A DNA stretch of 64,000 nucleotides, taken from contig NC_092576.1 of assembly GCF_037975245.1 (NCBI RefSeq), forward strand, positions 1,917,501 to 1,981,500, in the 5' to 3' direction. Under the pieces are notes generated by a model that did no database searches, was not told the origin of the DNA, and saw nothing but the letters and a program-made list of their open reading frames with translations. The DNA is from Apostichopus japonicus (Eukaryota; Echinodermata; Holothuroidea; Aspidochirotida; Stichopodidae). Below are positions 638 to 64,000 of this stretch, piece by piece; the first letter of the stretch is position 1; every line of letters begins with the position of its first letter. The position numbers and the translations under genes were made by a program.

Positions 638-3600
638 CTTAGCTCCGCACACCAATGCAAAATGAACTCTTGGATCGAGCGAACTCATGACAAACTGAAG
701 TCTTGAGTCGCCATCTTTGAAGAAGAGCTCTGGAGATGATGGGTGTGGTCTGTTGCCTGTTGGAGACGAAGAAAAGGATGAGACCAAAATACATTTTTAA
801 TAAATCAGGGCATCGTTTGGCAATTTAAACATCTGCACATTATTAATGATTTATTTAATTAATGCTAAAATGACCATGGAGTATTTATACCCAACCACCT
901 TTGTGTATATGTACAAGTCTTCTTAGAAAACATCAGAGCATGTTTCTGACCAAACACTGATTTGAAAAAGACAAAGAAAGGTCATAATATTTCAAATACT
1001 TGAAAATTAAAATGATGGTAGCCGATGATCAACTGGGCTCACCAGATCGAAATATCTTATGAATATGCATGAAGGTGAATATTCAGTTATATATTTTCAT
1101 ATGTACATTCATACATAATATGCATGTAAATATTTATGATAAGGGTTATGAATATTAATACACCTACATTTGTTCATATTCATGCACACATTAATCTTGA
1201 TAAACATATGAATATTCAACGGTAACTCATAAGAACTTAACCAATGTGTTCAAAGGTAATATACTGTATAATACCTCTCAAAACACCATGTTCAATGTCA
1301 TCTAATGAATATTCATCTCCACTAATGATGTATCCTGTGCTCCTCCAAAACTTCTCCACATCCAACACTGACCTTGGCAAGGTTGGGCATTTGGCAAGAC
1401 CGTGAATTGTTAATGCATTATAAATATCTGAAAACTGTCACATCGGAAAACTAATTCCCATAACATGATGTCAGCAACTTTGCATAGCACAAGATGAGGA
1501 AACAATATCTTAACAGTGGTTTTACCCTGGGCAGTTATGACACATCAATTACAAATCTGCTTCCAAAACTTTCTCCTTTGTGAACCATGTTACGATTTCA
1601 AAAGGCTCGCCACGACCCTTAAATTTCTATTCGTTTTGTGTAAATGGAACCAAATATACTCCTTTGTGTCTGGTTTACACTAAACTACACATGGACTGAT
1701 CCGATTCCAATTAATTGATTGCAATTAATTGCTCATTGATTGAAAGTAAGTAGAACAAAAACACATCACAACTTAAGACATGGGGAAGTTGAATATCAGA
1801 TTTATGTTTACTGTACCAATCAAATTGTTTGGTATTTGAAAACAAAAGCTTGTCAACATTGTAAACATTTACATTTCAATAATAATGATGAAAAATGCTT
1901 TTCGTTCATTCTCAACATTGTAAACATTTACAATTCAAAGGATACTGATGAAAAATGCTTTTCTTTCATTCTCAACATTGTAAACACTTAAAATTCAAAG
2001 GATACTGATGAAAAATGCTTTTCTTTCATTCTCAACATTGTAAACATTTACAATTCAAAGGATACTGATGAAAAATGCTTTTCTTTCATTCTCTTTCAAA
2101 GAGGTCAGGTCAACATGCTGTAAGTCAACTGCTTTCATCTCATAACTTTTAAAGAGGTCACCCTCTTTCAACCGATGATAATCTACACTATGGCCATCTT
2201 CCAGCATAAACTCTCCTTTCATCCTGTAGAGTATTAGAGATGGAAAATTCATTCATACTTGTTAAAAAATCCTCAAGTTGGATTGGTCGGTTGTCGTCAG
2301 CTGACTGGGCAGTAACCTATGGATACTGCACGGTAAACTCACCGGCACATTAATATAAAGTTTCAAGAAGAAAAGAAATCAAATATTTATGGTAGCTGAT
2401 AAGTGAAATATGTTTGGTCAAATAGACTGCTGGTCTGCTGAATTTGAGGATAATTTTATGATTTCTACCTAAAAGGCAGCTTTCATGAAATGTATGTACC
2501 GTGAGATTCTTTGTTTTCCACTATTTAAAAGGTCAGAGACATGGCATGGTCAGAGAGGTAAAAATCACAGAATATGCTGACATCAGGATAATGAACATGA
2601 TGAAGTTACATGGAGGGTTTTGAAGTGGGAGTATCAGGTTACCAACTGTAGTATTCTTCTCGCTGACACAGTGAAGATTGAATCAGATATAGACGAAGGG
2701 ATTTAACATTGGCTTAAACACTTTATTTACATAGAACACAACTCTCCATCGAGGGCGCTCTTTCAAAATTACTTTGATACACTACACCAACTTACCATAA
2801 GTCAGACTGTTTAATTAGGTTCCAAATTTTTGCAACATAATAAACTGCATTGTCAAGAAGGTAAACTAGACTGTATCTAAATATCCTTTTGATAAGATAG
2901 AACCAATTTCCAGACATAAAATATGATCGATGGCTGCATAAGAGCCAGACAAGCTTGGACAGAAATGTTACAGTGTAGTCCTCTTTAAGAATATCCAAAT
3001 GTTTTTCAAAGCTGAGGGCTGGATGTACTGCCCCAACTTTCAACAAATGAAATATGGCAACATTAGATGTGAACCTCTTGAGGGTAGAATAAAGCCTTAG
3101 AACATACAATCTTCCTAATTGCCATATCCATGTGTAGATGTCAAATGGCTTGTTAAGCCTGACACCTCACTTCTGATGAGTGGCCTTGATTTATAGTTTC
3201 AGTATATTTCAGTGTTTCAAAATTTAAAATATGCAGATTGGAAAACCATGGACATATCTGGGATGAAAATCCCTTCTTACGCTGCTGGCAAGGTATTAAC
3301 CATACTACTTCCCGGATACTCATTGCTACCCTATTGTGCTACTGCCGTTATCAAATCGAATATAACAGTGATCACTGGTAATATTAATTAAGAAATTGTT
3401 ATTAATTACTGTCGGAAGATTGTCAATGAGATTGAGTCATCTGAGTGACATGCAAATCACTTTGGTATAAGAAAAAGAAAGAAAAGTGTTCAAGCATTCA
3501 ACTTATATTTTGAATCTGTTTAAACTTCATGGCATTTGATTATTTTCCAGTAATTGTTGACATACCTCAACATTAGTTTTTGTAATTCCCTAGAGACCTC

Positions 3601-3671
3601 CAGGCCAGGGCGAGGTAAGTGTTGATTTAATATATTCATAGCTCCTTTAATCTTGTCAGATGAACATCTAG
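638..3671 (-). CDS. DUF547-domain protein, partial (four internal exons)
   Basis: Four exons splice in frame on the minus strand: 3566-3671, 2066-2223, 1275-1427, 638-756. Every junction phase agrees (AG|G, A|AT, G|GC). The joined reading passes through EVSRELQKLMLR, LEDGHSVDYHRL, VDLTSLKENERKAFFIN, IYNALTIHGLAK, RGNRPHPSSPELFF and LDPRVHFALVCGAK. The motifs AFxIN-IYNALTIHG and DPRVHFALVCGAK are hallmarks of the DUF547 family, whose biochemical role is unknown; animal members often carry extra N-terminal domains (family knowledge). The last exon ends in phase 0 just before the expected SCPPI-like block, so the 3' end lies left of base 1. The 5' exons were not found; they would lie between 3672 and the PSMD2 promoter or be too short to recognise. 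The 2066 donor is U12-like and sits in a 60-bp tandem array. About 178 codons recovered. Confidence 0.85.
1853..2096. repeat. 60-bp tandem array across an exon 3' end and its donor
   Basis: About four copies of a 60-bp unit. The rightmost copy contains the true 3' end of the DUF547 exon (ending at 2066) and its donor. The next two copies (donor blocks at 1997-2005 and 1937-1945) keep the exon end and donor exactly; the leftmost copy has lost the donor. All three minus frames through the array are closed, so the copies cannot extend the exon as coding sequence. Confidence 0.85.
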
Positions 3672-4784
3672 CTATATAGGAAGAAATTAGTAGAAGAAAT
3701 AAATAACTTAGCCATTTTATAAAGGTTTCTTTGAAGCATGTTATTTTGACTTTACAACTTTACTTGTGGGTCAGCTTCCAATATTATGATCGACTTGTCA
3801 GGAAAGGCTCTTTGTTGATGATCTGCGATTGGGAGATTTTTTCTGATTCTTTTTACTGGAGAATATTGAATTAGGGTGTTAATGGGATATTTGACATTCT
3901 GCTCCTACCTTGTAAGTATATGTTTATTAACGTCCAATGCATACTGATTGCTATATGAAACATGAAGACGGATCGGTATGCCTAAATTAAGTCACTGCTA
4001 AACCAAAAGCAAGTACAGTATATTAAACGTAGCCTCTGCCTAGGTAATCTCAAACCTAGCTACTTGCCTGTGTTCTCTGTGCTGTCTTGGCCCAGCCAAT
4101 GCATATATGTCAAATGCAATCAACTTGACGTTTTACTAGAATAGGTACACCTCCAGGCTACAGTAACGTTAGTCTATGGCAAAACGTCAACACATAATAC
4201 TTAGGCCGAAGCTAAGTTAGATCATGCCTAACAGTAACAGTGAGAATAACGTAAGGCTAAGTTGGGGCTGACATAAAGCCTAATCAGTAATGAGGCTAAC
4301 TGTTATTGTTACTGTAAGTGTTAGGCCTAGCCCAGTTTGTGTTAAACTGTCAAAAACTCAAATTTTATTGAGCCATGCCTTGGGCTGATTAATTTGGATG
4401 TTCTCACTTCAATTGTTAGAGTTTCAGCAAGCTTCCCAAGCACAGGAAATTCGATGATTGTGCGCTTTGCATAACATCTAAGTTTTCGGTCATGTGACAA
4501 ATTGTTTCGGTGTTTTCATTTCGCGAAATCGGTATGTTGTACAGCAGCATATAGAGAAACCTACTTTGGAGGTATCATGTCAGCTAAATTATTCCTTTGC
4601 CTCTTTGCGTGTACCAATTCGAACATTTTTGACATCCCATAATGCTTGACGTACTGCAGAAGACATGCAGTATTCGGGAAATAATTAATATTTAAAAGTA
4701 GAACCTAGTAAAAAAAACGGATGTATGCAGTTGGTTGGGATGATAATCACCACCCAGTTAGCTGCTAACAAACTTATCAAGGGA
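3672..4784. other. unassigned: DUF547 5' region, no exon recognised
   Basis: AT-rich sequence upstream (minus strand) of the first recovered DUF547 exon. The missing 5' exons and promoter of that gene may lie here, but no reading frame with family similarity was seen. It ends at the left target duplication of the composite transposon. Confidence 0.3.
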
Positions 4785-6224
4785 TTAAGCGTACGGGACC
4801 ATTTCGGTTTGGGGGGGGGGGCAGAAACTTTTGTTCCCGAAATTTCCCGGGACACTATCTAAGCGGAGCGCCACCATCGGTTGGCGCGTGGCGTACAAGA
4901 ATTTTTGGGGCAAAATATCCCTCTCAGATTGCCGGAAATGGCACTTTTGAGGCCTTGCAAGTTGCATCTAAACATTCTTTATTTTATAATCTCACGTTTA
5001 GAAAGTAACACTTCCCCAAAATTTTGGTAAATTAGAAGAAGGAAAAAATGATAACATCACATTGACGGGGAAAACTAGGACAGTATATTTTTTAACTCCT
5101 ATTTAGTTACGGTATTTATTATTTTAACACAGTACTCAGCTACCCCCAGAAATAACATACATTGTTCAACGACACGTAGGAAGGAAAATATCGCTGTGTC
5201 GGGTGAGACTGCAATTTGTCTCACAAAAACGTATATAAAAAATAACAAAGAATATGATAAACCCAGTGGCGGAGCTAGGGGTATTGGTCAGAGGGGGCGA
5301 GAATTGTCTGTATAGGGCGCTTTTGACACTATCTAAGCGGAGCGCCACCACAGGTTGGCGCGGAGCGTACAGAGTTTTTTTGAGTAAAGATACTCCCTAG
5401 ATCGCCGGAAATGACCCTTTCCGGGCCTTGCTAGTTTGCAGATAAACGAAGAATAAATAGCCTTTAGAGATATTTTGTCAGTAAATTACAGCAAGAAAAT
5501 GTGACAAATGTCAATACTTAGATGAGGAGCGCAATAGAAAAGTCAATAATCGCGAATAAGTAAAAAGTCGTAAAAAGCTGAAAAGGGCGCCAGCAGTACA
5601 TTTGAGTCCGTCAGGGGAGGGGGGGGGGGCATTCGCCCTGACTATATGGACGCTCCGCCACTGGATAAACCTGTACTTTTAGGCTTGTAGGCACTCCCCC
5701 CACCCACCACCCATGAAAAAGAAAATGTTTTTTATATAGGGGCCTTACACTCATGTCTGGGATGTCCAGGTATACAGTTGACTAGTTAGAAAAAAATGTT
5801 TACTGCGTTTTTTTTCACTTCAGAGACTGCTAATCTCCATGCATGCTTGTCACCACGATTGTGAGCGGCGTTCCCTGTTAATAATTTTGGGCGATAGCCG
5901 ATAGTGCAAAAAGCGTGTTAGCCCAAATTAGCTGCGCTTACGGTGGTATTACTCGGAAATATTCGGGCATCATGATGCTAAATAAAGAAAATCATTAGGC
6001 CTATATTAATATTAATGTCACAAAACAAATAACACAGAACGCTCTCCACGGAATTTTCGGGCAAAAATATGAAAAAGATTCGGGCAAGCTACTATATATT
6101 TATATATATTTTTTCTCCTCTTAGGCTGCCCGAATATTTCAGGACTTTTGCCCGAATTTCTTGTCCTCTGGAAATTGGGGGGGGGGGCAGTCTCCCTGCC
6201 CCCCCCCGCCTCGTACGCCTATGA
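4785..6224. mobile_element. 1.44-kb inverted-end DNA transposon relic with 8-bp target duplication
   Basis: The element is flanked by identical 8-bp repeats TCAAGGGA at 4777-4784 and 6225-6232. Its ends are imperfect inverted repeats built around GCGTACG (left TTAAGCGTACGGG, right CGTACGCCTATGA). An 8-bp duplication fits the hAT superfamily. No transposase frame survives, so it is non-autonomous. G or C runs sit near both ends. It carries a roughly 120-bp module (about 4850-4975) that also occurs in two other MITEs in this window, and a complete second MITE is nested at 5264-5663. Confidence 0.75.
5264..5663. mobile_element. hAT-type MITE, 400 bp, nested
   Basis: Terminal inverted repeats CAGTGGCGGAGC at the left and GCTCCGCCACTG at the right. 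Identical 8-bp target duplications GATAAACC lie at 5256-5263 and 5664-5671. End sequence and duplication length match hAT non-autonomous elements. There is no coding capacity. Perfect duplications suggest insertion was fairly recent and occurred after the outer element was in place. Confidence 0.9.
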
Positions 6225-6826
6225 TCAAGGGACAAAACAGAGCAAGGACAGATTATTCTCAAAAAAGATGGTGAATTTCATCTCGATGTAGTTCTGTTCA
6301 CATTAACGTAATATACTTGTAGTCACAACAGTGACGTGCGAGTATCATCCCACACCTCTGTCAGTCAGGCGGGGTAAAGTAATAACACAACCTAGTTATC
6401 AGAATTAATCATAAACCTGGTTTATATGTAACATTGGACCTCTAAATTTTGAGCGTTTTTCTTACAGTGGACCGATTGACCTGGCTCACACCCACACCGC
6501 CAACTTCACTGAACTGTCCACAGTGAAAGGTTCGTGTTTCTACCTGAATTAACATTAATTTTGCCTTCTTCAGTTCGATACAAATCACGTTTATACGGTA
6601 GTATTTGCTTATCTAAATCTTGGCAATACACTATTTTGTAAAAAGGTTGTGAATTCTCATGTTGTTGTAACGCTTGCCTTTGCATGTTGATCGGTAATGG
6701 AAAAAAATTGATGATCCAATCGGCGTTCCATGTACGGCTTTGTTATTATCGCCGTTTGGTAAAGCAATTAGAATCTCATGTTGAAATACTCCTCTCTTCT
6801 ATTCGCTCAATAGCACGGACTGAAAA
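6225..6826 (+). promoter_or_regulatory. probable PSMD2 promoter and 5' UTR region
   Basis: About 600 bp lie between the composite transposon and the PSMD2 start codon. A pyrimidine-rich stretch (CTCCTCTCTTCT, about 6789-6800) lies shortly before the ATG. No TATA box was identified and the exact transcription start cannot be set from sequence alone. The insertion of the transposon just upstream may have displaced or supplied promoter elements. Confidence 0.35.
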
Positions 6827-24895
<18,069 letters not shown>

Positions 24896-27800
24896 AGCAA
24901 GCCAGCAAATAATTATTCGAATGGTTATGCAACGGATTGGAGCAACGCTGTCGAAAGATACGACTGATATTTAAACTTTCTTTTTGTAGTACAGAGTTTG
25001 TACTTGCAATGTTGAGGTGTTATGTCTAAATGTTTTACCAGCTTCGTACCACCTGTTTTAGTATCAGGAGTTAACAAGAAAGCTCTAAAAAAGGCTCGGC
25101 AAACGACAAGTGTTCAATGTTAAGGGCAGTGACCCAGGCTCAACTCACAGAGAGCTGTAAATTTGGAAGACAAATTCTGTGATGTCTTTTTTGAGTCGAC
25201 GGCCCCAAAAAGATTTGATGCAGTAAGTGGTAAATTTGAAGGTCTCTCAAGAAATTTACTGCTTAACGATTGCTGTCGCTAAATTCCAATACTGCTTAAA
25301 TGGAGGATTCGTTGCCATAATGTCCATTAAGAGACAATAATAATATTCATTGGGTCTACATGTGATCTCTAGAAGACACAATATCAGAACCAGCTATTTC
25401 TTGGTTGCAACTTACCTGTTACTTGTCATTGACAATGTACTTTGTTAATTTCCCAAGACCGGCCTATTTGTTCCCCAATTTCACATCTTTTCGCTTTTGA
25501 TTTCTATTGAAGCAGTCACAAAGTCCTACATATCACCTGATTCAGGAAACAAAAGATATGATGCCCTACTTATATGCTAACCAAAAGAGAAGGTAGTTTA
25601 CTATGCAAAGCTTAGGTTCCAAGTTTTCACATACATGTTACCTGTTAGGCTAACATGATCATCTTCAGTTCCACAAACAGTTCATTTCTCAAATAGCATG
25701 TATAGTAGGCAACCCCATTCTTCATAGGAATCAATTTCTCATGTAGCTAGTTAAGGCAAAGGAGTGAAGTAACCCAGTTAGATTACAGGTTTGGAAAGGG
25801 GTGGGGGCAGGAAGGGAGGGACTGCAGAACAGTCTTGTCAGAGTGGAACATATGATAAGCCTTGGGGAAGAGGTCATATTTTGATATATCTGGAATAAGT
25901 AAAATGGTTTCAAAGAAGAATCGCACTCATGCCCTTAAGACCTACATTGACATTTAGTAGGCTACATTTATTCCATAATTTACAGGAAGTGAGCAGAATG
26001 TTTGTTTTGATGTCTTGTGGAGGAAATATGTCAAAAGATATAGCAATCTACTCCAAGAGAGATTAAGCTTATATCTGATAAATCTTCACAAAAGTATTTG
26101 CACTCGATATCGAGGAAATGAAACAAGTAATATAACTTTGATGAATGATAGAGGTCTCATGTTAATGTTTACAAATTGTTGGTGAAATAAATAAAAAAGA
26201 CAAAGAATTTTGTATAACACATTTATATATTATAATGGAGTTGTTTTTAATTTTTTGTTATTTAACAATTTTAAAATCGTTCAACTCCCTTATTTTCTAT
26301 GACACATTGCTACATGGTAGTGCAAAATTACAGTGGCCTTTCTTTTATCTGTAAAGTAAATCAAACTCACCCAAGGAATTTTCCACAACTCTTCTTAATT
26401 TTTTTATCCAACAACTAATCTGGTATCAAGGGGACATACATTTAAAGACAAAATGGGATTAGTATGAATTAGTTGCCATGATGACCAGGACAAGATTTTG
26501 AAATTCCTAACAAGTTATTTTATCCATTGGGTGGTGTGTCAGCATTTTCCTGACGATCACATTATTTGGCCAATAAAATTGTAAACTTTATGAAACATTC
26601 ATCGTCCTTAACTAAAAAAAATTCTTACCAAACAAGATATGAAGCTAGTACACAGAATACCTAACAAACCCAATTAATAAACACAAAGAGAGCGGGTCAG
26701 TTTGATAACTGTCAAAATGATATACCATGGAATTGAGCAAGAAAGTGGATTGATTAGAATGTCAAACCAGTGACCAAAACTTGGAAGCTCTGCTAAAAAA
26801 AATTCTCTGCTCTGTTTTCCATTGTTTATAATATCTGTCAGTTTTCCATTTACTGATAAACTGTATGTTAGTATACATTAAACTCCGTTTGTTAGATGGA
26901 ATGAATCGTAGCGATATAAAAACATTTTTTTTTTGCTCAATGCACAAGAAAGCAATATCCTATTATTCTTAACCCATTGAGATAAGAAACTTTTTTTTTT
27001 CTGACAGGCTCCAGAATGGAGTGTATATTAGGTCTAGTGAAAGGTTGTGCTCATAATGCCTTGGTGGTACACCCCCACCCCCTGGATGGATGCAGGAGTC
27101 TAGTCCTATTGTTTCACATAGGATGAAACAAGTGAAAGATGCCCTTACTTTATACATGGATCAGTTTTAAAATCATCCCTCTAGAATCAAGTCCCATAAA
27201 GAAGTTGCAATAGTCCGTTTCCACTTTCTGCCGAATTTACTCGAGTAGGTACAATGTCTATTCATGAGAGTAATGAAACCTTTATCAGGCACAAAGATTC
27301 ACATGGTACGTCTCCTGTTTAAACTAGATAAGACCCACATACCAGCACCCTCTGTTGAATTTGGGCGGCGCTAGAAACCTTATTGTCAGTACTCCTAACA
27401 TGTCAGTTGAATAATTCATTTTGGAAACTTCTACAAGGTAAGCTAATATCTTCGACCTAATACTGATTCCCTTGAAAACAATGATGGCTGAAAACAATGT
27501 TTGAGTTTTATCTCGATTCAGTGCTCTCCTACCCATCCAACCCCTCCACTGCCCCCTCCACTGCCCCCTCCACTGCCCCCATCACCCTTCTAACCATGTA
27601 ACCTAATTGTGCAACATGCAAAGTAAAACATGAAAAGCCTCCCCTAGTACACACCCCAGACAAACTTGGGTTCCTTCACAAAATACAAACAAGGAATATA
27701 TATATATATGTGTATTAATTTTTGTTCTCACAGTACTCCATTGTAATACTTTATTACCACATTCGATAAAACTCTACCCACCTTCATTCCATAAAATTAA

Positions 27801-28523
27801 CTTACTAAATACATATTTTTTTTCAATAACCATATCATATTTAATTTGACAAGGACGAGCATCTGTTGATGACAATATATATATATAACGAAGCACTGGC
27901 TTTGGAGAAAAAAACTGAAAACAATTGCAAGAATAGTTGTGAACGCTACCAAGGCCGTGTCTGACAAAATCATGAAAAAGTTATAAACTGATTCAAATTA
28001 AATATGACATGAGGTGGAATTTCCAGTGGCATTCTCCCACCCAAAGTAATCTTCATTCCACAAACTTATGCAGTCCACTCGAAATTACAGATATACCTAG
28101 GTGGAATCCTAGCATGCAATGTTCATTAAAGTCTCCTTCACAGCCTCCTCCTCACCCCCCCCCCCTTCACTAGATATGTTTGACTTGATACGAAACGTCT
28201 CTCTCCTACATCATAGAAATGCGGTACCAGCAGCTGTGATGGAACACCATTTAATTATAACATTATATATTTAGTTATAACACACGACAGAATTTTGATA
28301 AACGGTTCCTGAAGTGAACAACAGAATGCTTTCTTCCTATCAATCCCATACATGCACCCTTAGAGTATACAGCTATCCCAGTCCTGGTCTATAAACATCC
28401 ACACATTCATCCATACAAAGAAAGGTAGTCTAGTTTCCCCAAACAGTACTGGCACGAGGTTCAAAATTTGAGGAGGGGGTTGTGTAATAAGGTGCCAACA
28501 TTCACGGTGAGGTATTGCACAAT
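24896..28523. other. convergent intergenic region: 3' UTRs of PSMD2 and ATP6V1C
   Basis: No coding exon is recognised. AATAAA at 26186-26191 (overlapping a second at 26190) is the best PSMD2 polyadenylation signal I see, implying a 3' UTR of about 1.3 kb. On the minus strand, the complement of TTTATT at 27750-27755 is a possible signal for ATP6V1C. Short frames here have no family motif. Two small TA-rich runs occur near 27700 and 27875. Confidence 0.45.
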
Positions 28524-31500
28524 TCATTTCTTTTCCCAGAAGTTGATGTTGATAGGGTAGTACACATATGGATAATATTCATTGTTGACCATAAAGCCAG
28601 GAAGGTCAAAGTTTGCCTGTAAAGAAAACGAGGACATCACATTCAACTGATCAGCTTTAAAATGTTGACAACAGGTGTTGCATCTATATATACAGTGGAT
28701 CAAACAATATTATTGGTTGAATTTGGAAGACTCTTGGATGCACCCAACGAAGTCTACTGAAACTAAAGAATTTGCTCAATTAAAATATTTTACACATCTT
28801 AATGCTCTGTACACTATTAGGTCAGAAACTTTTGCTAACATGAGTGTAAGTCAAGTCATACGGTCCACAACTTCCATTTCTCAAGTAAAGTCATTGACTC
28901 ATGTCACCATATTATCTCTATGGAGGAAAATCTTGATGAATTTCATAGTTGAAACTTCATATTTGAAATCCATTTTTGAAAGTCACTGAATATTTCAACG
29001 CTCACCAAATAAATGCAGGCTAACCAGTTTGTCCCAATAGTGCAAAGTCTAATGTCCATGAATTGCATTGCCAAATAAATCCATTATTCTCATGGTTTTT
29101 TGAGCTGTTTAAGGTTATCATGGTTTCACTGAATATAAAGGACTATACCTCTGAGACGGTGTTTGCTGTACCGCTAGTGTCGAGGTGAGAGTAGAGATCT
29201 TTCAACATCTCCCTTAATCTCTTTTGTGTCTTCTTGTAAGGGTGGAGTAACATGGCCTGGAAGTTGACGGGCAAACCATACCTAAGCAGGAGAAGACGAG
29301 AGTAGAGGAGAATCATCCCTGTTCTGAAACGCAGCTATGCAATTGGCTAGGATGATTAGGGTCTACTATGAATATGTTAATGTGACATAAATATTATACA
29401 CAAAGAGGAAAGCCACCCTAAAAATCAAAATCTCTTTGAATGTTAACTTTCTTCATCACTTGCTTACTGGTGAATGAAAGGAGGGAAAAATCCAGATCGT
29501 TGACTACCTTCTCATTGTTCAATCAAAGAAGAAAAAGCCTCTCACCTTAAAACAGATTCCACGAACACTCTGATAGCCTTCACATGGATCCAGGCAGTAA
29601 AACATTCACTGAAATTAATCTTCAACCATCTGACCAAAGGACCCTGAGACAAGATAATTAAAACAAAGTATATTACATATTTTTTGGGGGGAAGATATTA
29701 ATTCCTCCAAATAGCCGAATAAAAATTCAATATTCAAAGTTTGGATGTGGGTGAGACCATGTGGGTGTCAGAAGGCAATTATAATAAAGGTAATTAACGC
29801 ATGATCGGACAGACAACAATTTTATTTCAATTTGTTCCTAACAGCATTAAACGTTAACAATAGTCAACACAAGTTTTAACCACTGTTGAACTGGAAAAAA
29901 TGATAGTTTTAACACGTAATATCTCTGTGGCCAGTAGTTGCCATAGACAAATCAAAATGCCATAAGCCTTTGCCATGCCACTTGTATCTCAAATGGGCTT
30001 AGTTGGACTCCACAGAAAACGGCAGGTTTCCCTGTTCACACAGTATTCATACACTGATAAAGACGTAACCCCTTATCACGCTGTATTCATACACTGATAA
30101 AGAAGTAATCCTATCAGGCCATATTCAGACATTGATAAAGAAGTATCCCTTATCACGCAGTATTCATACACTGATAAGGAAGTAATCCTTATCACGCAGT
30201 ATTCATACACTGATAAGGAAGTAATCCTTATTACGCAGTATTCATACACTGATAAGGAAGTAACCCTTATCACACAGTATTCATACACTGATAAAGAAGT
30301 AATCCTTACATATTGCTTGTTTTTGTCCGCAGTCAGTTTGTCTCGTTCGTTCTTCCCAGCTGCGACTTCCTCCTCGCTATAAGTAAAGTCTCGGACAATA
30401 AATCTAACAAGAGGAATTTGAAATCAAACGAAACGATTATTCAACGATGGAGTTTCTTGTTTTCAGAAACTAATCCTAAATTTATGAAGAAAACATGTAC
30501 CATTAGGATTAAATTTATTACATTATACTGTTTTAAAATGAAAACAACTAAAAGGCTGGGAGATAATGGCATCTTATTTGAGCGGCATCCTTATTTCTAC
30601 TACATGTCTACTGCTGTAAACAGCAACAATTCCTGGCAGAACAAGTCAGTGTTACAATAATGGAGACAAAATCATATCATCATATCATCTCCGCTAGGAT
30701 TGTTTGAATCAGATAAATTAATTGATGATGTTTCATGGAAGATTGACCATAAGGACATATGCCTAGCATCCTTGGACAACTGTCCCAGAATGTAATTACA
30801 ATTACACTGGCAAAGGATCCTCATACAGACAGTCAAAATTTGTTCAATAAAAAAGATAAAAATTGTTTAAATAAACTCATTAGTTTCTAGATTACTTTAC
30901 TTTCTAGGCAATATGATAAATATTTTTTACTTTAACATATTACATACTCATAATTAATAATCATTTTAATGTCTTACATATTCATTGTAATCTTTAATTT
31001 GAATGTCTTGCATATTCATTATAATAATTTTTAATTTGAATGTCTTGCATATTCATTATAATAATTTTTAATTTGACCTTACATATTCATTTTAATCATT
31101 TTTAATTTTAATGTCTTGCATATTCACTATTCTACCTAATATTATTTCATCATACTAACTTGTTTTCTCTGGCATGGAGTTTGTATTCATCAACGACTTT
31201 CTTGAAGAGAGTCACTGTGAAGAGGGAATTTTCAGAATCTGACGAGATTTTCCTGAGAAGAGGGAAGAAAAATAAAATTACACAAACAATTCCTTCTATA
31301 ACGAGGAGAATTTTCTTTCTCATAAAATACAGTAAGCAAGTGACTGGCTCCAGCCGATAGGCGGGTGAGTTATTTTTATTGGGGCACTGCCAGATTTGGC
31401 CTACTTGACTTGCTCACTCCTGTGTTACATACGTAGTTGACTGAGTTATATTAACAGCAACATCAACTACAGAACATGTTGTGTCTAACAATTTTAACTC

Positions 31501-34500
31501 CATGACTTCTGGTGCAATTTCCATTTATATAAAAAAGTAACACATTGAGTCTTCAGTTTAAACTAAATCAATCCATTCATGGTAGAAGGAGTGTGGTTAT
31601 CAGCAGCTTAGTGAAAGCTGAATGCATAACAAGGCTTTGAGACAAATCTAGTGGCTTACTTTGATGACTGTGGTACCACCATGTCCGAGAGAGTTTCATA
31701 TTTGTTGTTCCAATCATCTTCACAGGATCTGAAAGAAAACAATCAACATAAACTTAGGCTAATTTGATAGAGAATAGTTCTAAATAACCTCATTCCTACA
31801 GTCTTTTTCAAAGAAATCTCTTTTGATTGAAATGGACTACCTTTTGTGTTATCATGTGTACAAACTTTCAAGGCTTGACCTCTGCTGACCACAAATGACC
31901 ATTGAACTTTAAAGAAATGAATAGGGTTCTCTTTTTCAATAAGACGAATTCACATACCAAGTATGAAGTTAATCCAACATCCACTGTTTGTCGAATACAC
32001 TTACACACCCACACATGCCATTGATTGCATAGATTCCTTCTGCTTCCAGCAAGGAATCAAAAATATATTTTCTGCCAAAAAAGAAAAGAATTAAAACAAA
32101 CTAATTCACACCAAATAAAAAGGGACCACAAAAGAGCTAGAACCAGGGTTAACTTCAACCCGGTCCTCTTGGCATAAAGAGGAAATAACCATAGAGGGCA
32201 GGCTGCAGATAAATAAATCTGACTTTTCTGAAGACTTACTTCTGAACGACGACAAGCAGAGTGGTCAAGTATTCTGAGTTGGTGACGAAATGCTCCTTGT
32301 TAACCAATTCTCCTAAATTCCTGGTCAGCAAGCTACCACTGTTAAGTAAGGAGAATAAGAAACCAATCATGATTATCACCTAATCACATCATATCAAATA
32401 AGTACTATGGGTGAAAATTAAGACAAAGCAACGGGGGACCCACGTAGAATATTCATTCAATTCTCAAGAAACTTCTGGTTTATAGCAAGATTACCACTGT
32501 GTAGAACAGAGAAGAGCAACCAAATGTCAAATTATTATTTCATTAGCACAGTACAAATTTATAATGCAGCAAAACAGGTACTAATGTTGAAAACCAGGTT
32601 ACCATCAAAGTTTAGATCATGTGTAACTCTCACTCTACAGAAGGGAAGGAACCAACCATGGAGGGTCATGTGACGTAATCCTAGGCGCTACTAACATATT
32701 ATCTAACCCTTTATCAGTTTAAAGAGATAAGCCTTTCCAAAGACGACAGAACGCCACTATATACTGTGTACTTACACTGATTTCCTCTCTAGAGTTTGGA
32801 GTGTTCCCTTGAGATTATTGTAGGAATGGGCTTTAGTCTTCAAATCTGCATCCACTTGAGAAACTTGCTGCAGATGTTTAAAAGGAAAAAAAAACCAAAC
32901 ATACAATGTGATGCATAGAAATTTATAGATAAATAATGGCCACCATGAATGAAAGCAGATAATACTAAGTATGTGACTTTATTTTTTCTACCATTGCAAC
33001 ATGATGACCATATATATGAGAAATTTGCATACCACAAATATTAGAGACCATTTTTCATGTAATTTTGATATCTGACATTAGGGCCGTTTTATTATCCCCT
33101 TAGTCTTAAATTAATGAATGTGTAACATTATGCTGAGTGAGTACATGTAAGGATAGGATGTGTTAACATTCACTGAGACATCATTCTGAAATATCCGTTT
33201 ATTAAGTGAACTATTGAAACCTTACCACATATTACACTTTAGTGCTAACCCTAACACACTGCTATATATCAGAGTGACTGTCTTCTAAGTTACTTTCTTT
33301 GCTAATTATTGCTTTTAGATTTGAATAACTGTTCAACAGCTTATTTAATTTGCTACCAATTGCTGCTATATAGTCTTAGTGACTATTTTCTAGTTAACTT
33401 TGTCTTTTAAAGATTTCTTCTACACTTTCTGAATGACCATCTTCTTGTTAACTTAATTTGCTAATAACATTTTGTTATATTTTCTGTGTGACTATTTTCT
33501 AGCTTACTTAATTTGCTAATGATTTCTGCTATATTTCTGCGTGACTATTTTCTAGCTTACTTACTTTGCTAATTATTTCTGCTATATTTTTGAGAGGTTG
33601 TTTAATCGGGTATTTGGCTAAATCCCACTGGAACCTCGTCATATAGGATGTCAAATCAGCTGAAGAATGAAAAAGAAAGATATAAGACTGAATTATTAAC
33701 AACTCATGTCTTCAAATGAACAATGTTTCTTCAATGCCATAACTCAGGACCAAATGAAGATCAAAAATTGTATAATTGTTGTTAAATATGATTTGAAGAG
33801 TATATAAAAAAGTTGGCAACTATACATGATAATTTTTAAAATGATAGGTGTCATCATTGTGGGCACAACTAAAGTTATCAAGCACTATCAAGATACATTC
33901 ATTAAATAGTAAGCCTCTGTATGTAGCAGTGGGTACTGATTTTGAAGCTAAATTCAGTAAATTGCTATTCAGTCACAATTAATTAACTTACTTCCATTAG
34001 CAAGGAGATTTCCAGCAAGTTTTTCGCCATGGTCTTCTAAAACTTCACCAAGATACTGCGAGAGCTTGTGTGTGACACTAGAAAGAAACAAGTAGAAAGA
34101 TTGCATTAATGTTTTAAGTTGTTAACATTCTACCAATGACTTCACAAAGATACTTCGAAAGCCAGTGCTTGACACTGCAAATAAACACACTAATAGTGAG
34201 TTCTAAACAACAGGCCCAACAAATGTATCAAGGGTCCATTGGTAGCCATTCATACACTAGAAGGAGATTTACAAATAGTGAGTATACAAACTCAGGCTCA
34301 ACAGATGTATCAGGGGCCTGTTGGGAGTCGATCATAACATTTGAAAGGGATTTACAAATGGTACTTGCAACAACAGGCCCAACAGATGTACAGTATCAGG
34401 GGCCCATTGGGAGCCATTCATAACACTAGAAAGAGATTTACAAATGGTGAGCTTGCAACTTAGGCCCAACAGATAGCAGGGAAATAATGTGTAACACTGG

Positions 34501-35045
34501 AACAGTTTCAAACTCAGGCCCAACAGATATTGAGGGATGGTAGGGGGAGGGGGGGGGAAGGGGTGTTTGTGCCACTGGAGAGGATCAAATTATTGATGAA
34601 TTTCTGTTCATCAGCATCACAATATTGAAACGTTTCAGCAATTACATCAGTGACAAAAAGAATGCTATTTCAGGAATCCTGACAAAAGGTTTTAAAGGTA
34701 ACTAAGTGGACACTCAGTAAACGTGAAACTTGTCTTTACCTGAGATGAATACAAACTAAGTCATCTCATATATTTATTACTAATTAGCAGTACTGACAAA
34801 AGATAATTCAGGAGAAATTAATTTTCAACTCACTTTTCTACATAGCCGTCTAACTTTCCCAGCTCATCAGAGAGACCCACCAGTATATCCAGGGTACCAA
34901 CCTTCAGGTCTGGTAATGAAAATTTACTATTATGTGAGAGAGCTTGACCCCTGGCCACCGTGCATTGATTTAAACGTTCCCATGTTTGCTGGGTGGTCTT
35001 CTCTCCTGGTGCGGATATGAGCCAAAATTCAGTAGAAGCTGTCAT
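28524..35045 (-). CDS. ATP6V1C: V-type H+-ATPase subunit C, complete, 11 coding exons
   Basis: Exons in coding order: 34834-35045, 33992-34077, 33565-33659, 32776-32867, 32240-32338, 31660-31728, 31160-31252, 30310-30403, 29546-29643, 29149-29281, 28524-28616. They total 1164 nt, or 387 aa plus stop, against 382 aa in human ATP6V1C1; all phases agree. Diagnostic blocks are [13 protein letters not shown] at the N terminus, [88 protein letters not shown] and [14 protein letters not shown] at the C terminus. Subunit C is the elongated V1 subunit that joins peripheral stators to the membrane sector; its release accompanies reversible V1/Vo disassembly (family knowledge). The ATG follows a CTCTCTCAG acceptor, so a non-coding exon probably precedes it; a donor at 36292 (GAG|GTACGA) fits. 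Invertebrates usually have one C gene, so I do not choose C1 or C2. Confidence 0.96.
30015..30309. repeat. 39-bp minisatellite abutting an ATP6V1C donor
   Basis: About seven copies of a unit with GCAGTATTCATACACTGATAA and GGAAGTAATCCTTA. Because 39 is divisible by three, the minus strand shows an open frame repeating [13 protein letters not shown]; this is not a gene. The array starts immediately after the donor of exon 30310-30403, and the unit's GTAATCCTTA end resembles that donor flank. Confidence 0.9.
30935..31145. repeat. 40-bp AT-rich tandem array, ATP6V1C intron
   Basis: About five copies of TTTAATTTGAATGTCTTGCATATTCATT-like units, split here as TTTAATTTGAATG plus TCTTGCATATTCATT. It ends about 15 bp from the donor of exon 31160-31252. 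Confidence 0.75.
33280..33600. repeat. 55-bp tandem array copying an ATP6V1C exon end
   Basis: Five to six copies of a unit whose minus strand reads as the end of exon 33565-33659 (ATATAGCAGAAATAATTAGC) followed by intron. The true donor is GTAAGT at 33564. In the copies the GT is changed (for example TTAAGT), so they look unable to splice. Confidence 0.8.
34134..34525. repeat. 87-bp tandem array and a decayed copy of an exon start, ATP6V1C intron 1
   Basis: 34134-34185 is about 80% identical to 34041-34092, which holds the start of exon 33992-34077 and its acceptor. It continues into about four copies of a unit with CAGGCCCAACAGATGTATCA, GGGGCCCATTGGGAGCCATT and ACACTAGAAAGAGATTTAC. The last block derives from the acceptor flank. 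Confidence 0.8.
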
Positions 35046-37905: not shown

Positions 37906-40900
37906 ATGACTCAAGGAAGTTGGTCTCGTTATTTGAAAGTCTACGACCCACTGAAGGCAGGCAGCATAGATGGAACGGACACTAGACCACACGACAGAGG
38001 CATCGAGAGGGCGATAGAGGTGAGGTTGTATACATGTATGTATGTATTTTAGATCCTCCTGCAAGCAGGAACTCGTGAAGAAGCCATCATTGGCTTATCA
38101 AAGCCGCACGCTGACCGAAGTCAGTCTCTTAGATTTATATTTTAAAATCCATGATTATTAATTGTCAATTGTCAACAACTCTGTAACTGGAAGACATACA
38201 TTAATCTTGGGTTGACTCGAACTCGGGACCTTATGATTGAAAGGCACCGTAGTTAACCACTGAGCTAACAATCCTAACACTGAGCTAACATTCAAGGTTG
38301 AAAGCCATTTCAATCTATTGAAATCATTCAAGGGAATGTAACTATTGTTACTACGAAAACCATGGATATGAGTTTAGACATGCAGCTGTAATTATATCAC
38401 TTGCTTGAACTCACATATAAACCTGAAATTGATTTCAAGCGATACATGAAAATCATCAGGTATTACGCCATAATTGTCAACATTTATCAACGATCTAGAT
38501 TCCTGCATGCTCTGGCCCTCCTAAAATATTTCAGTGGCCAAGAATATTTACTTGTGAAGCAGTTTTGAATTCTCTAAGCGTTCTCTTATAAAATACTACA
38601 TGTTTCCTGTGTCCAAAAGCTGTCATATATATCTTTGCGCTTGTATAGCAATTTGCTCATTTTGGGATGCAACACGGGATCAATAATTCCCTGGATTGTG
38701 CTTTAGAAGAGCCTTTCCTGTGCTTAACAAATCTGCATATTTATTGTGAAGTGCATTTAGTATCCTCAGTGTTTTCATCAAACATATCGACAGTTGAAAT
38801 CCCATCAAAATGAAACAGAAAAAAAAAAGATCTTTCCATGATATTGCTCTGCTTTAATCTGTCTTTTCTTTTGCTTCTTTTAAAAAGCTCTTTTTCCAGA
38901 TTTGTTGGTTAAAATATAGTTTTGCATTATTTTTCATTGGTTCTTTACTATTTTACATATTTTACTTTCCAGTCTGTTTATGTTCCTGACAAGAATCTAC
39001 AAAGCGATCCTATGAAGACGCTCTTTGTGGGGAGACTTAATCCAGAAACAACAGAGGAGACCCTGCGTAAGGTAAAGTATCAACATCCTGTCATTGGATG
39101 GAAAAGGAAAATTTTGTATCATTTTCAACTTTTTTTAATTTATTACCAAGTGTCCAAAATCAAGAATATAAATCCAAACAGTGTTGCTTGAACTCTGTTT
39201 AATTTAATCATAAAGAAAAAAATTAAAGCACCATTCATGTTTCGATAAAACTCTTGAGATGGACTGAGCCTGATGAGATGGGTGGTCAGGGTCTATACAG
39301 CTCCGATTGACCCGGGGTCAGTTTGCTGGGCGGGGGGAGCTGATTTTGACGAAACCTACAAACTTGGCACAATTTTCCGTTTGGTATTGATTAAACCTGG
39401 TTTATGTCTTTACTCATATACTGATTTCTTCTTTGTGATGTCTGGTTATTTTTCTGTTTAGGATACCTCCCTATTTTTCCGCAGGCTTTTTCAAAATATG
39501 GTGAAATAAAATCCTTGAATCTGATCAGAGATATCATCACTGGATTTTCCAAACAGTATGCATTCATCGAATTTGATTTGCACGGAGATGCGGACGAAGC
39601 CTGTCAAGAGATGCATGGCAATTACCTTGACAACCACAATATATTCGTCGACTGGGAGTGTGGGAGGGTTTTCCCAAAATGGCTGCCGAGACGTTTAGGT
39701 GAGTTCGGTTGATTTTCCCATTGCGGTATCTGTAGGTAGCTATGAAATTACTCACATTACCACAGTGGAGATCGGGCAATGCAATTAATTTTAAAAGCTT
39801 CTTAATTCAATAGTTACCGTAGTGATGACCCATTCCGACAATGTCAATTGTTTGCATTTTTCAAATTTTCACAACATTTGTATGAGAAAGAAGGTTGAGA
39901 AAGGTCAAACTTGCCAAGTACACAGTATTTAGTGTTTTTTTTTTCTCACTTTTTTGTTCTGTCCACCCGCAGGTCATTATAATAATAATTCTTACACTTT
40001 TCAAAGCAACCATAAACATGAAGCCTAAACCTAGCACTCTTATGTGTCCATCTAGGTTTTACTGGTCTTGTTTTTTTTTGTTTTTTCGTTAAAGCTCGGA
40101 GAGCGGTTCCCAGCAAATTTACCAATCCTATTGGCTTTTACTCAAAATAAGATTGCAATTTCTAAAAATTCCTAGAAATTTGATTTAAGACTATTAAAGC
40201 TGTTAAATTGAAGAGAAAGAACTACTTTACTTTCAAAATGTTTCATATAATGTTGTTTTTATAATTTTATCTTATTCTCATCAGGGGGAGGACTTGGAGG
40301 CAGGAAGGAATCTGGACAGTTAAGATTCGGAGGGAAAGATCGACCGTTTAAGAAACCTTTCATATTAAGTAATACTGGTCAGGGTGCTGGTAGAGGCAGA
40401 GAAGAGATACGTGGATTTGAAGAGAAGGCCCAAAGGGGGGACGGTAGGGGTAGAGATGTCAAGGAGATGGATAGGGGATACAACAGAGACAAGGGATACC
40501 GTAGTACTAGGAAAGAAGGAAGCTATGAACCTGAATACAGGGAGAGAAGGGGCGATAGAAGCAGGGACAGACAGAGGGACGGGTACAGGGAGAGAAGCCA
40601 GGAGAAGGAGACTGACAGGTACAAGAGGCGTGATAGGGGCAGGGATAAGTATGAGGATAGGGATGGTTACCATGACGACAGGGGTAGTTACAGACGAGAC
40701 GATAAAGAGAGATACAGAGATAGAAGAAGAGATAGGAAAGAATCAGAGGAGAAAGTGAGTAAGAGGAGGAGGAGAGGTGACTCCGAGGAGAGGAAAGAGA
40801 GGCAAGATGGGAGGAATGAACGATCAGAGAGATATGGGCAGACGAGGAGGTTCACGGAAGAAAAGGTGGCGACCCGAGAAGGAAATGGATCGCCCGATAG

Positions 40901-41039
40901 AGACGATAGGAGGAAAAGACGGTTTATAGAGGGGAAACGAGAAGGGACATCAGAGTATTCTGAAAGATACACAGAGGGCGAGAAGAAGCCTTGGAGCAGG
41001 AGAAAATTCACTGAGACGAAAGGGGAAGAAGATCCATGA
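37906..41039 (+). CDS. SNRNP35: U11/U12 small nuclear ribonucleoprotein 35 kDa protein, complete, 4 coding exons
   Basis: Exons: 37906-38019, 38973-39071, 39485-39698, 40285-41039; 1182 nt, 393 aa plus stop, all phases consistent. The N terminus carries [13 protein letters not shown] and HDR, diagnostic of U11/U12-35K. One RRM spans about residues 50-130, with RNP2 LFVGRL at 55-60 and RNP1 KQYAFIEF at 94-101. Then come [19 protein letters not shown] and [13 protein letters not shown], matching the human protein after its RRM. The protein is the minor-spliceosome counterpart of U1-70K and helps U11 recognise U12-type donors (family knowledge). Two oddities: RNP1 has Gln where Gly is usual, and the charged Arg/Glu/Asp tail (about residues 170-393) is much longer than in human (246 aa in all). 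Confidence 0.95.
38029..38290 (-). mobile_element. tRNA-derived SINE, minus orientation, SNRNP35 intron 1
   Basis: Read on the minus strand, the head is tRNA-like: GTTAGCTCAGTGGTTAAC (A box) and GAGTTCGAGTC (B box). The body includes GGCTTCTTCACGAGTTCCTG, and the end is a (CATA)n tail, seen as GTATGTATGTAT on the plus strand. The tail and body match the SINE at 42228. The element begins about 10 bp after the exon 1 donor. Confidence 0.8.
40285..41039 (+). other. SNRNP35 terminal exon encoding the RE/RD tail
   Basis: This single exon codes for the conserved [21 protein letters not shown] segment and then about 220 residues dominated by Arg, Glu, Asp and Lys, with repeated RDR, RER and YRDR units. 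Purine-rich codons (AGG, GAG, AGA, GAC) create long open frames in other registers (for example 40384-40758 plus, 40688-41182 minus), which are shadows. Alternating basic/acidic tails of this kind mediate protein contacts in the spliceosome (family inference). Confidence 0.85.
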
Positions 41040-63029: not shown

Positions 63030-63674
63030 CTGTAAAGGAGAAAATAAAGCAACATGTTTGAAAAGAATTTGATAAACTATACGGACAGACAGACAGACAA
63101 GTTTCATGTGTGAGGTGACGTAGAGTTGCTACAGATACATATCACAGAATATAGTCTTGACCTGTTTTAGCATCCACCTCCTTCCCCCACCCCACAATAA
63201 AAGGAAAGAAAGAACAACACTAAACAAGGTAGTTAAAAATACCTCGCCTTATTTCGTAGAAAACAACTATATAAGTGCAAAAAATTGCAAAGGCAAGAAG
63301 TTGGGAAACCGACCAACTTCGGCTGAAGTAATATGAGCTTATTTAATCCTATTAGCCACAAAAATAGTGCGACTGTTCGTCATAATAATTCCTGACAAAA
63401 CTTTCAGAACAAGAAAACAAGAATAAAGGAAAACCAAAAAATATTTGTACAAAACCCCCTTATTGTGTGTCAAATGATGGAGTTGGGGGAAGGGCTAGAA
63501 GGAAGAGGTTGTCGCGTGAGGTTAAGTTCTGAAACACATTCTGCAAATGGATTGTTACCAGGTTAGATATAGATACAATCTCATCGAAAGCAAACATATA
63601 AGTGTAAATCCCCATTTGCGGATCAAAAACAAAAATACCGTCCACAATATGACCAATTTTGAAATCTTTTGTTA

Positions 63675-64000
63675 GTGGGTCAACGTGAACTACGGTCCAA
63701 TATTATATATGTACTGTTTCAATGACCCACATTAAACACTTTTCTCTCAGTGGCAAAAGTAAGCTAAGCATCAATATTATACATGAACTGTTACATTGAT
63801 CCACATTAAACACTTTCTTCATAGTGGGTCAACGTGAGCTACGTTTCTATATTATACGTTGTCTGTTTCATTGACCCACGCTGAACACGTTTATGCTCAG
63901 TGGGTAAAAGTGAGCTACGTTTCAATGTTATACATGGACTGTTATATTGACCCACAACGAACACTTTTTTGTAGTGGGTGGAACGTGAGTATACGTTCGA
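63675..64000. repeat. 74-bp tandem array with inverted repeats in each unit, runs off the window
   Basis: Four full copies and part of a fifth. Each unit opens with GTGGGTCAACGTGAGCTACG and holds TTGACCCAC about 50 bp later, so each unit can fold on itself (GTGGGTCAA pairs with TTGACCCAC). It lies in the RFX6 intron upstream of exon 62968-63029 and continues past base 64000. Confidence 0.85.

Follow-up and report, generated by a model that had tools for sequence, protein, structure and literature searches.

Minisatellites that run across exon-intron junctions occur in a 64,000-nucleotide (nt) stretch of the genome of the sea cucumber Apostichopus japonicus (contig NC_092576.1, positions 1,917,501 to 1,981,500, forward strand), where they are found in a DUF547 gene, in PSMD2 and in ATP6V1C. 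This stretch is called the window below, and positions within it are counted from its first letter. The arrays are probably ordinary intronic minisatellites that are tolerated at donors (5' splice sites) and are rarer at acceptors (3' splice sites). Neither in the window nor in an independent set of eight chaperonin genes from the same genome is junction sequence duplicated more often than intron sequence.

A preliminary description of this DNA had placed arrays across splice junctions in the DUF547, PSMD2 and ATP6V1C genes, and both Tandem Repeats Finder (TRF) and the gene models bear this out. The arrays named there were recovered by TRF, and four window donors lie inside arrays that take in 16-30 exonic nt. 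The stretch at 11424-12690, presented as one array, is not continuous, since a transposon-like insert lies within it. The features that bear on these junctions are the following.

1850..2093, minus strand: minisatellite (60-bp unit, 4 copies) across the donor of DUF547 exon 2 (exon 2066-2223; intron 1428-2065), with 28 exonic nt inside.
11421..11778, plus strand: minisatellite with a 130-bp unit across the donor of PSMD2 exon 5 (11219-11446), with 26 exonic nt inside.
11841..12544: transposon-like insert that lies within the PSMD2 intron 5 array; its ends are inverted (CAGGGATGTAAGT...ACTTACATCCCTG).
12545..12690, plus strand: final copy of the PSMD2 exon-5 array, on the far side of the insert.
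22116..22148, plus strand: end of PSMD2 exon 16 (21963-22131) with its donor, the part copied downstream.
22149..22429: transposon-like insert; its ends are inverted (CAGGCGCGTAGCCA) and it has an 8-bp target duplication, GTGGTAAA.
22447..22876, plus strand: second part of the PSMD2 intron-16 array, unit about 96 bp.
33259..33594, minus strand: minisatellite with a 53-bp unit across the donor of ATP6V1C exon 3 (33565-33659).
34042..34451, minus strand: 86-bp minisatellite of ATP6V1C intron 1, reaching 36 nt into exon 2 (33992-34077) across the acceptor.

The junction-spanning TRF arrays have units of 53-130 bp in about 3-6 copies, and the copies are diverged (68-94% matches). How well the duplicated splice sites ("decoys") are preserved differs from array to array. 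The donor of the DUF547 array, GTATCCTTT, is kept by two decoy copies and lost by the deepest one. Decoy donors follow 11575 and 11705 in the PSMD2 exon-5 array, and the one after 12557, in the last copy, scores 11.0, equal to the true donor (11.0). The end of PSMD2 exon 16 has its copy at 22497-22535, on the far side of the second insert, and the decoy after 22512 scores 11.5 vs 7.4 for the true donor. None of the five decoys of ATP6V1C exon 3 has GT at the donor place, and the acceptor and start of exon 2 have one weak, degenerate copy only (34139-34187).

Arrays of this kind have been described in amphioxus as "mirages", minisatellites across exon-intron boundaries of Adh3, globin, troponin C and PGBD5 genes (PMC3087553, PMC3902484). 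The present arrays share the two sequence hallmarks of mirages, namely minisatellite-sized units and a unit that contains the exon end and its splice site; the two are found together at four donors and at one degenerate acceptor of the window, and also after exons 10 and 11 of CCT8.

The preliminary description held that such arrays are more frequent than random placement in introns would give. The gene models of the window comprise 5 genes with 48 introns (41,232 nt) and thus 49 donors and 51 acceptors, 100 junctions in all. Junction-centred or random intronic 60-mers were counted as copied when a match of score at least 40 lay within 1.5 kb. Copies were found for 5 of the 100 junction 60-mers, all of them donors, vs 57 of 600 intronic ones, and none of 600 intronic 60-mers reached that score in a distant 3-kb stretch. 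Because of overlap among the intronic 60-mers, P-values computed against this group are nominal. Junction 60-mers are thus copied no more often than intronic ones, and junctions are therefore not duplicated more than intron sequence.

Array placement gives a more divided picture. Random-placement nulls for the 12 TRF arrays of the window, which allow arrays to reach into exons, yield 0.6-1.4 donor-spanning arrays where 3 are observed (P 0.018-0.15); for spanning at both intron ends combined, P is 0.12-0.56. Of the 12 TRF arrays, 7 span a donor or have their donor-side edge no more than 30 nt from one, where 1.1-2.2 are expected (P at most 0.0013), and acceptor edges are found in 0/12. Under a null that forbids exon entry every edge test falls below 0.01, and spanning is there impossible by construction. 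A rule-based set of 20 intervals, in which two-copy pairs and both halves of the split PSMD2 exon-16 array are separate intervals and two insert-internal intervals are included, has 8 donor and 2 acceptor edges within 30 nt, with 1.9-4.2 expected of each. At the spanning and 15-nt thresholds, the donor excess appears in only 2 of 4 nulls each. The window thus has a donor-side excess of array edges, but no firm excess of junction spanning.

The independent set consists of CCT2 to CCT8 and HSPD1, which lie on eight other chromosomes and were located by a PF00118 family search of the genome (671.6 Mb, 35 contigs, the window beginning at C16:1917501). One multi-exon hit on C17 was left out, as were hits on C3 and at C8:490794 without clear multi-exon structure. 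The eight genes were modelled by spliced alignment to human proteins; of 103 rows, 4 of zero length and 10 doubtful terminal exons were removed, leaving 89 exons and 81 introns (68,541 nt). The CCT8 model passes an end-to-end alignment to solved CCT8, a check made for this one chaperonin only. Arrays were counted where they lie within modelled introns.

Here too junctions were copied no more often than introns (5/162 junction 60-mers, made up of 5/81 donors and 0/81 acceptors, vs 209/1500 intronic ones). Two of the five donors, both in CCT8, have a copy of both junction sides, a third, also in CCT8, of the exon side only, and two (HSPD1 and CCT6) of the intron side only. In total, 7/28 arrays have an edge no more than 30 nt from a junction, vs 5.0-8.9 expected, and all 12 tests of the total give P of at least 0.22. 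Six of the 28 are donor edges (2.5-4.4 expected) and one is an acceptor edge (2.5-4.5 expected); the donor-only excess is marginal, with P 0.034-0.27 and 2 of 12 donor tests below 0.05. Counted from the donor, local duplications cover 3.2% of chaperonin intron bases in the first 10 nt and 13.9% at 200-400 nt; counted from the acceptor, the figures are 0.0% at 0-10 nt and 0.3% at 10-30 nt. The corresponding donor figures in the window are 10.8% in the first 10 nt and 14.4% at 200-400 nt. Given these edge tests and the low coverage at donors, the donor-edge excess of the window is not clearly reproduced.

Of the claim that arrays meet junctions more often than expected, then, the donor edges of the window survive, and the junction 60-mers of both sets and the chaperonin edge total (P at least 0.22) do not bear it out; a general enrichment of junctions was rejected on the 60-mer counts and edge tests of both sets. 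The proposal of a local mutational process likewise finds no support, as junction sequence is duplicated no more often than intron sequence and the edge total is not raised in the chaperonin set. An absence of edge enrichment at junctions, which the preliminary description had named as the outcome that would count against it, is what this sample of 81 introns in eight genes gives, a sample and not the whole genome.

What does distinguish junctions is the difference between their two kinds, which can be observed, with reservations taken up below, when both sets are pooled (the pooled figures include the discovery window). Copies scoring at least 40 were found for 10/130 donors and 0/132 acceptors (Fisher P 0.0008, nominal), and at a score of at least 37 for 11/130 and 1/132 (P 0.003). 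Array edges behave similarly, with 11 donors vs 1 acceptor within 15 nt (P 0.006) and 14 vs 3 within 30 nt (P 0.013).

The most striking case of duplicated donors lies in CCT8 (C21:16408001-16421000), whose mirages are stronger than those inside the window. Two consecutive exons, 10 and 11, are followed by arrays (positions 8663-9655 and 9983-10530 of that stretch). Downstream of exon 10, the last 21-62 nt of the exon and its donor recur in 8 copies, with a 121-bp unit; six of the copies match at 93-99 of 97-102 positions and two at 50/61 and 54/62, and 7 of the 8 decoys score the same as the true donor (3.7). Exon 11 is followed by 7 copies built on a 46-bp base unit. A 137-bp duplication in the same gene reaches 87 nt into exon 8. 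The suggestion that repeats at splice sites are tolerated is strengthened by this gene, since donor-including arrays recur after its exons 10 and 11 and seldom touch acceptors, though the strict count described below is weaker (P 0.12). Over six junctions with 27 decoy places, 21 of the 27 keep GT. Spliced at the exon-proximal copy, the predicted PSMD2, ATP6V1C and CCT8 proteins align without a break to solved orthologues at the array junctions.

These observations suggest the following sequence of events. Tandem duplication would be frequent in the introns of this genome, probably through slippage or unequal exchange, and some duplications would happen to take in an exon end together with its donor. 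Local duplications make up 8.0% of intron bases in the window and 9.6% in the eight other genes, and because they cover this 8-10% of intron DNA some arrays cross donors. Such duplications may survive since the true donor stays the upstream-most copy, the choice reported under exon definition, and since use of a decoy would add a stop codon. Minigenes under exon definition that carried two equal 5' sites are reported to have been spliced exclusively at the upstream one (PMC9225289), and the introns concerned here mostly exceed the limit of roughly 250 nt given in that report (46/48 in the window, 74/81 in the gene set). Duplication of a donor would then be nearly neutral, with the exon-proximal copy presumably the one used in RNA. 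Acceptors are most likely spared because the branch site and pyrimidine tract fill the end of the intron; a decoy acceptor would moreover come first in the transcript and may or may not be chosen. Selection would be the cause of the donor/acceptor asymmetry.

Several results weigh against this account. Pooled arrays that actually span a junction do so at 7 donors vs 1 acceptor, for which P is only 0.07; a strict count, requiring 5 nt on both sides of the junction inside the array, gives 6/129 donors vs 1/129 acceptors (P 0.12), and the independent set alone, at 5/81 vs 0/81, gives P 0.059. Some of the 10 donor 60-mers with copies have a copy of one junction side only. Donor edges within 30 nt exceed expectation under all four nulls in the window (8/20, P 0.00025-0.035) and in the pooled data (14/48 vs 5.8-8.6 expected, P 0.00025-0.027), and there may be a mild donor excess. 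Extension of the exon to a decoy runs into an in-frame stop at 27/27 decoy places, which is weak evidence, as introns that long usually contain an in-frame stop. Finally, 3' sites are reported to show an upstream preference overall that is significantly reduced under exon definition (PMC9225289), so that site choice alone does not explain the spared acceptors; the likelier reason is that too little space would be left for the branch site and pyrimidine tract.

The donor edges could instead point to a mutational process linked to donors, for example one acting on transcribed or U1-bound donor DNA, which would seed duplications at or just inside them. Such a process would account for the 7 of 12 TRF arrays with donor-side edges, for the pooled 14 of 48, and for three arrays that start 1, 4 and 12 nt inside their introns, but the chaperonin set gives 6/28 donor edges vs 2.5-4.4 expected, with 2 of 12 donor tests below 0.05, and duplication coverage has no peak at donors in either set (3.2% vs 13.9%; 10.8% vs 14.4%). 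We regard it as improbable. It is about equally doubtful that the donor copies are functional, whether as alternative donors in some tissues or as regulated poison extensions. Boundary repeats that give rise to alternative splicing have been reported in human paralogs (PMC2812944), GT is retained in 21 of the 27 decoys, some of the decoys score as high as the true donor or higher (PSMD2 exons 5 and 16, CCT8 exon 10), and all 27 would introduce a stop; yet the decoys of ATP6V1C have all lost GT (0/5), copy number and unit vary from gene to gene, and the hosts examined are mostly housekeeping genes. A broader reading, in which the donors and not the acceptors of essential genes have been repeatedly amplified into tandem arrays with as many as nine 5' splice sites of nearly the same sequence, and in which mutation may slightly favour donors, is unlikely though somewhat less so; if true, it would amount to a natural, genome-wide experiment on spliceosome choice among equal donors, accompanied by steady intron lengthening.

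The PSMD2 intron-5 and intron-16 arrays are split by the transposon-like inserts and would therefore be older than these. The insert at 11841-12544 has a probable 6-bp target duplication, TACCTG, and no second copy within 264 kb, while the one at 22149-22429 has 8 related pieces elsewhere in the same 264 kb. An assembly artefact, with repeats collapsed or falsely expanded, is a familiar hazard in repeat regions, which are prone to such errors; it is very unlikely here, given that the array copies of the window are diverged, that inserts with target duplications split two of the arrays and that the pattern recurs in CCT8 on another chromosome. The presence of arrays in several introns of one gene might also suggest copies of a mobile, intron-like element (an introner) inserted at donors. 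Among 13 array sequences none has a match at E of 0.001 or below elsewhere in the 264 kb, the sole exception being a split array whose two halves match each other, and the DUF547 array, searched against the 671.6-Mb genome, has itself as the only match listed in a search that skips very common words. Units at the spanned junctions include the exon end of their own gene. A shared mobile unit was rejected, as no one element was found in many introns (13 arrays in 264 kb; the DUF547 array genome-wide), and an introner origin is extremely improbable. That array units are gene-specific favours local slippage or unequal exchange over a mobile element.

Comparison with known systems places the arrays nearest to mirages. 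In both, the tandem unit measures from tens of bp to about 160 bp and contains an exon end and its splice site, and many copies keep the splice signal. The published accounts place amphioxus mirages at both 5' and 3' boundaries (PMC3087553) and describe splicing as seemingly undisturbed (PMC3087553, PMC3902484), with haplotype copy number and mRNA examined; the present arrays differ in their donor bias, in their occurrence at five window junctions and two CCT8 junctions of one genome, and in being known from the sequence of a single haplotype. In human genes that lie in segmental duplications, internal tandem repeats have been reported at exon-intron boundaries, where they affect splicing (PMC2812944). 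Those repeats are likewise minisatellite-like, but their number is described as varying between recent paralogs, with alternative splicing and new introns supported by RNA, whereas the hosts here are conserved genes of other kinds and the evidence is sequence.

In the model of intron gain by tandem duplication, the duplication carries splice signals, as the present arrays do; a new intron arises in that model, whereas here an existing intron is lengthened. Potato RdRp is an example of such gain (PMC4974935). Latent 5' splice sites with in-frame stops, discussed under the name "Suppression of Splicing", resemble the decoys in that an in-frame stop precedes the downstream donors; they are described as scattered, and the decoys are tandem copies of the true site (PMC8996931). 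Intronic minisatellites associated with alternative splicing have been reported in C. elegans, in text that concerns introns and not boundaries (PMC4039745). A search of the open-access literature found nothing on boundary minisatellites in echinoderms, sea urchins or sea cucumbers, and no test of the chance expectation for boundary-spanning minisatellites. The present counts set the rate of such arrays against a null in one more genome, where it largely follows the frequency of arrays in introns, acceptors being spared. The array after CCT8 exon 10, like others made of equal donors, raises the question whether the upstream-most site is always used.

Other minisatellites of the window lie near junctions or within introns without crossing into exons.

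21064..21393, plus strand: 116-bp minisatellite starting 12-19 nt past the donor of PSMD2 exon 15.
23232..23362, plus strand: 33-36-bp minisatellite starting 4 nt past the donor of PSMD2 exon 17.
30026..30308, minus strand: 39-bp minisatellite starting 1 nt past the donor of ATP6V1C exon 8.
30931..31130, minus strand: 37-bp minisatellite starting 29 nt past the donor of ATP6V1C exon 7.
10741..11113, plus strand: 68-bp minisatellite of PSMD2 intron 4, 180 and 105 nt from the splice sites and not at a junction.

The first three had been thought to start exactly at donors; the actual distance from donor to array is 12 nt (19 by a second method), 4 nt and 1 nt, respectively. The arrays at 21064, 23232 and 30308 yielded no copy of an exon end or donor, and in this respect they are not mirages. 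A 76-bp minisatellite at 63667-63998, upstream of the first seen exon of an RFX-family gene near the window end, was excluded from the counts, and PSMD2 intron 10 holds an (ATG)n microsatellite of about 62 units (16719-16901).

The gene models themselves are as follows.

DUF547 gene, minus strand: partial, 4 exons seen.
PSMD2, plus strand: 20 exons, 899 amino acids.
ATP6V1C, minus strand: 11 coding exons, 387 amino acids.
37906-41039, plus strand: SNRNP35-like gene of 4 exons; Pfam gives RRM_1 only, on the 215 residues supplied.
RFX-family gene, minus strand: 14 exons seen.

PSMD2 and ATP6V1C can be aligned over nearly their full length to the solved 26S proteasome subunit 2 and V-ATPase subunit C, respectively. 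A 5-kb run of N (C16:1912501-1917500) directly adjoins the left side of the window, because of which the remainder of the DUF547 gene is unreadable. An ab initio predictor used alone was rejected as too loose, with 32 of 53 exons exact in a leave-one-out trial. The name SNRNP35-like, for a U11/U12 snRNP protein, is tentative and given by similarity.

U12-type introns have the donor consensus RTATCCTTT and a branch site, TTCCTTAAC, near the acceptor. The last intron of PSMD2, intron 19 (24301-24821), has the donor GTATCCTTT and, 14 nt before its end, a 9/9 match to the branch site TTCCTTAAC; it looks like a textbook U12-type intron. In DUF547 intron 2, the U12-like donor GTATCCTTT stands at the true donor and at two decoys (boundaries 2006 and 1946, minus strand); no clear U12 branch site TTCCTTAAC was found, the best match in the last 42 nt being 5/9. 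The DUF547 array is in effect a tandem array of U12-like donors, and the SNRNP35-like gene lies close to genes with U12-like introns. Outside the window, 200 kb of flanking DNA holds 12 candidate exons, and a long open exon at C16:2072330-2073494 resembles, by eye, part of a NACHT-type receptor.

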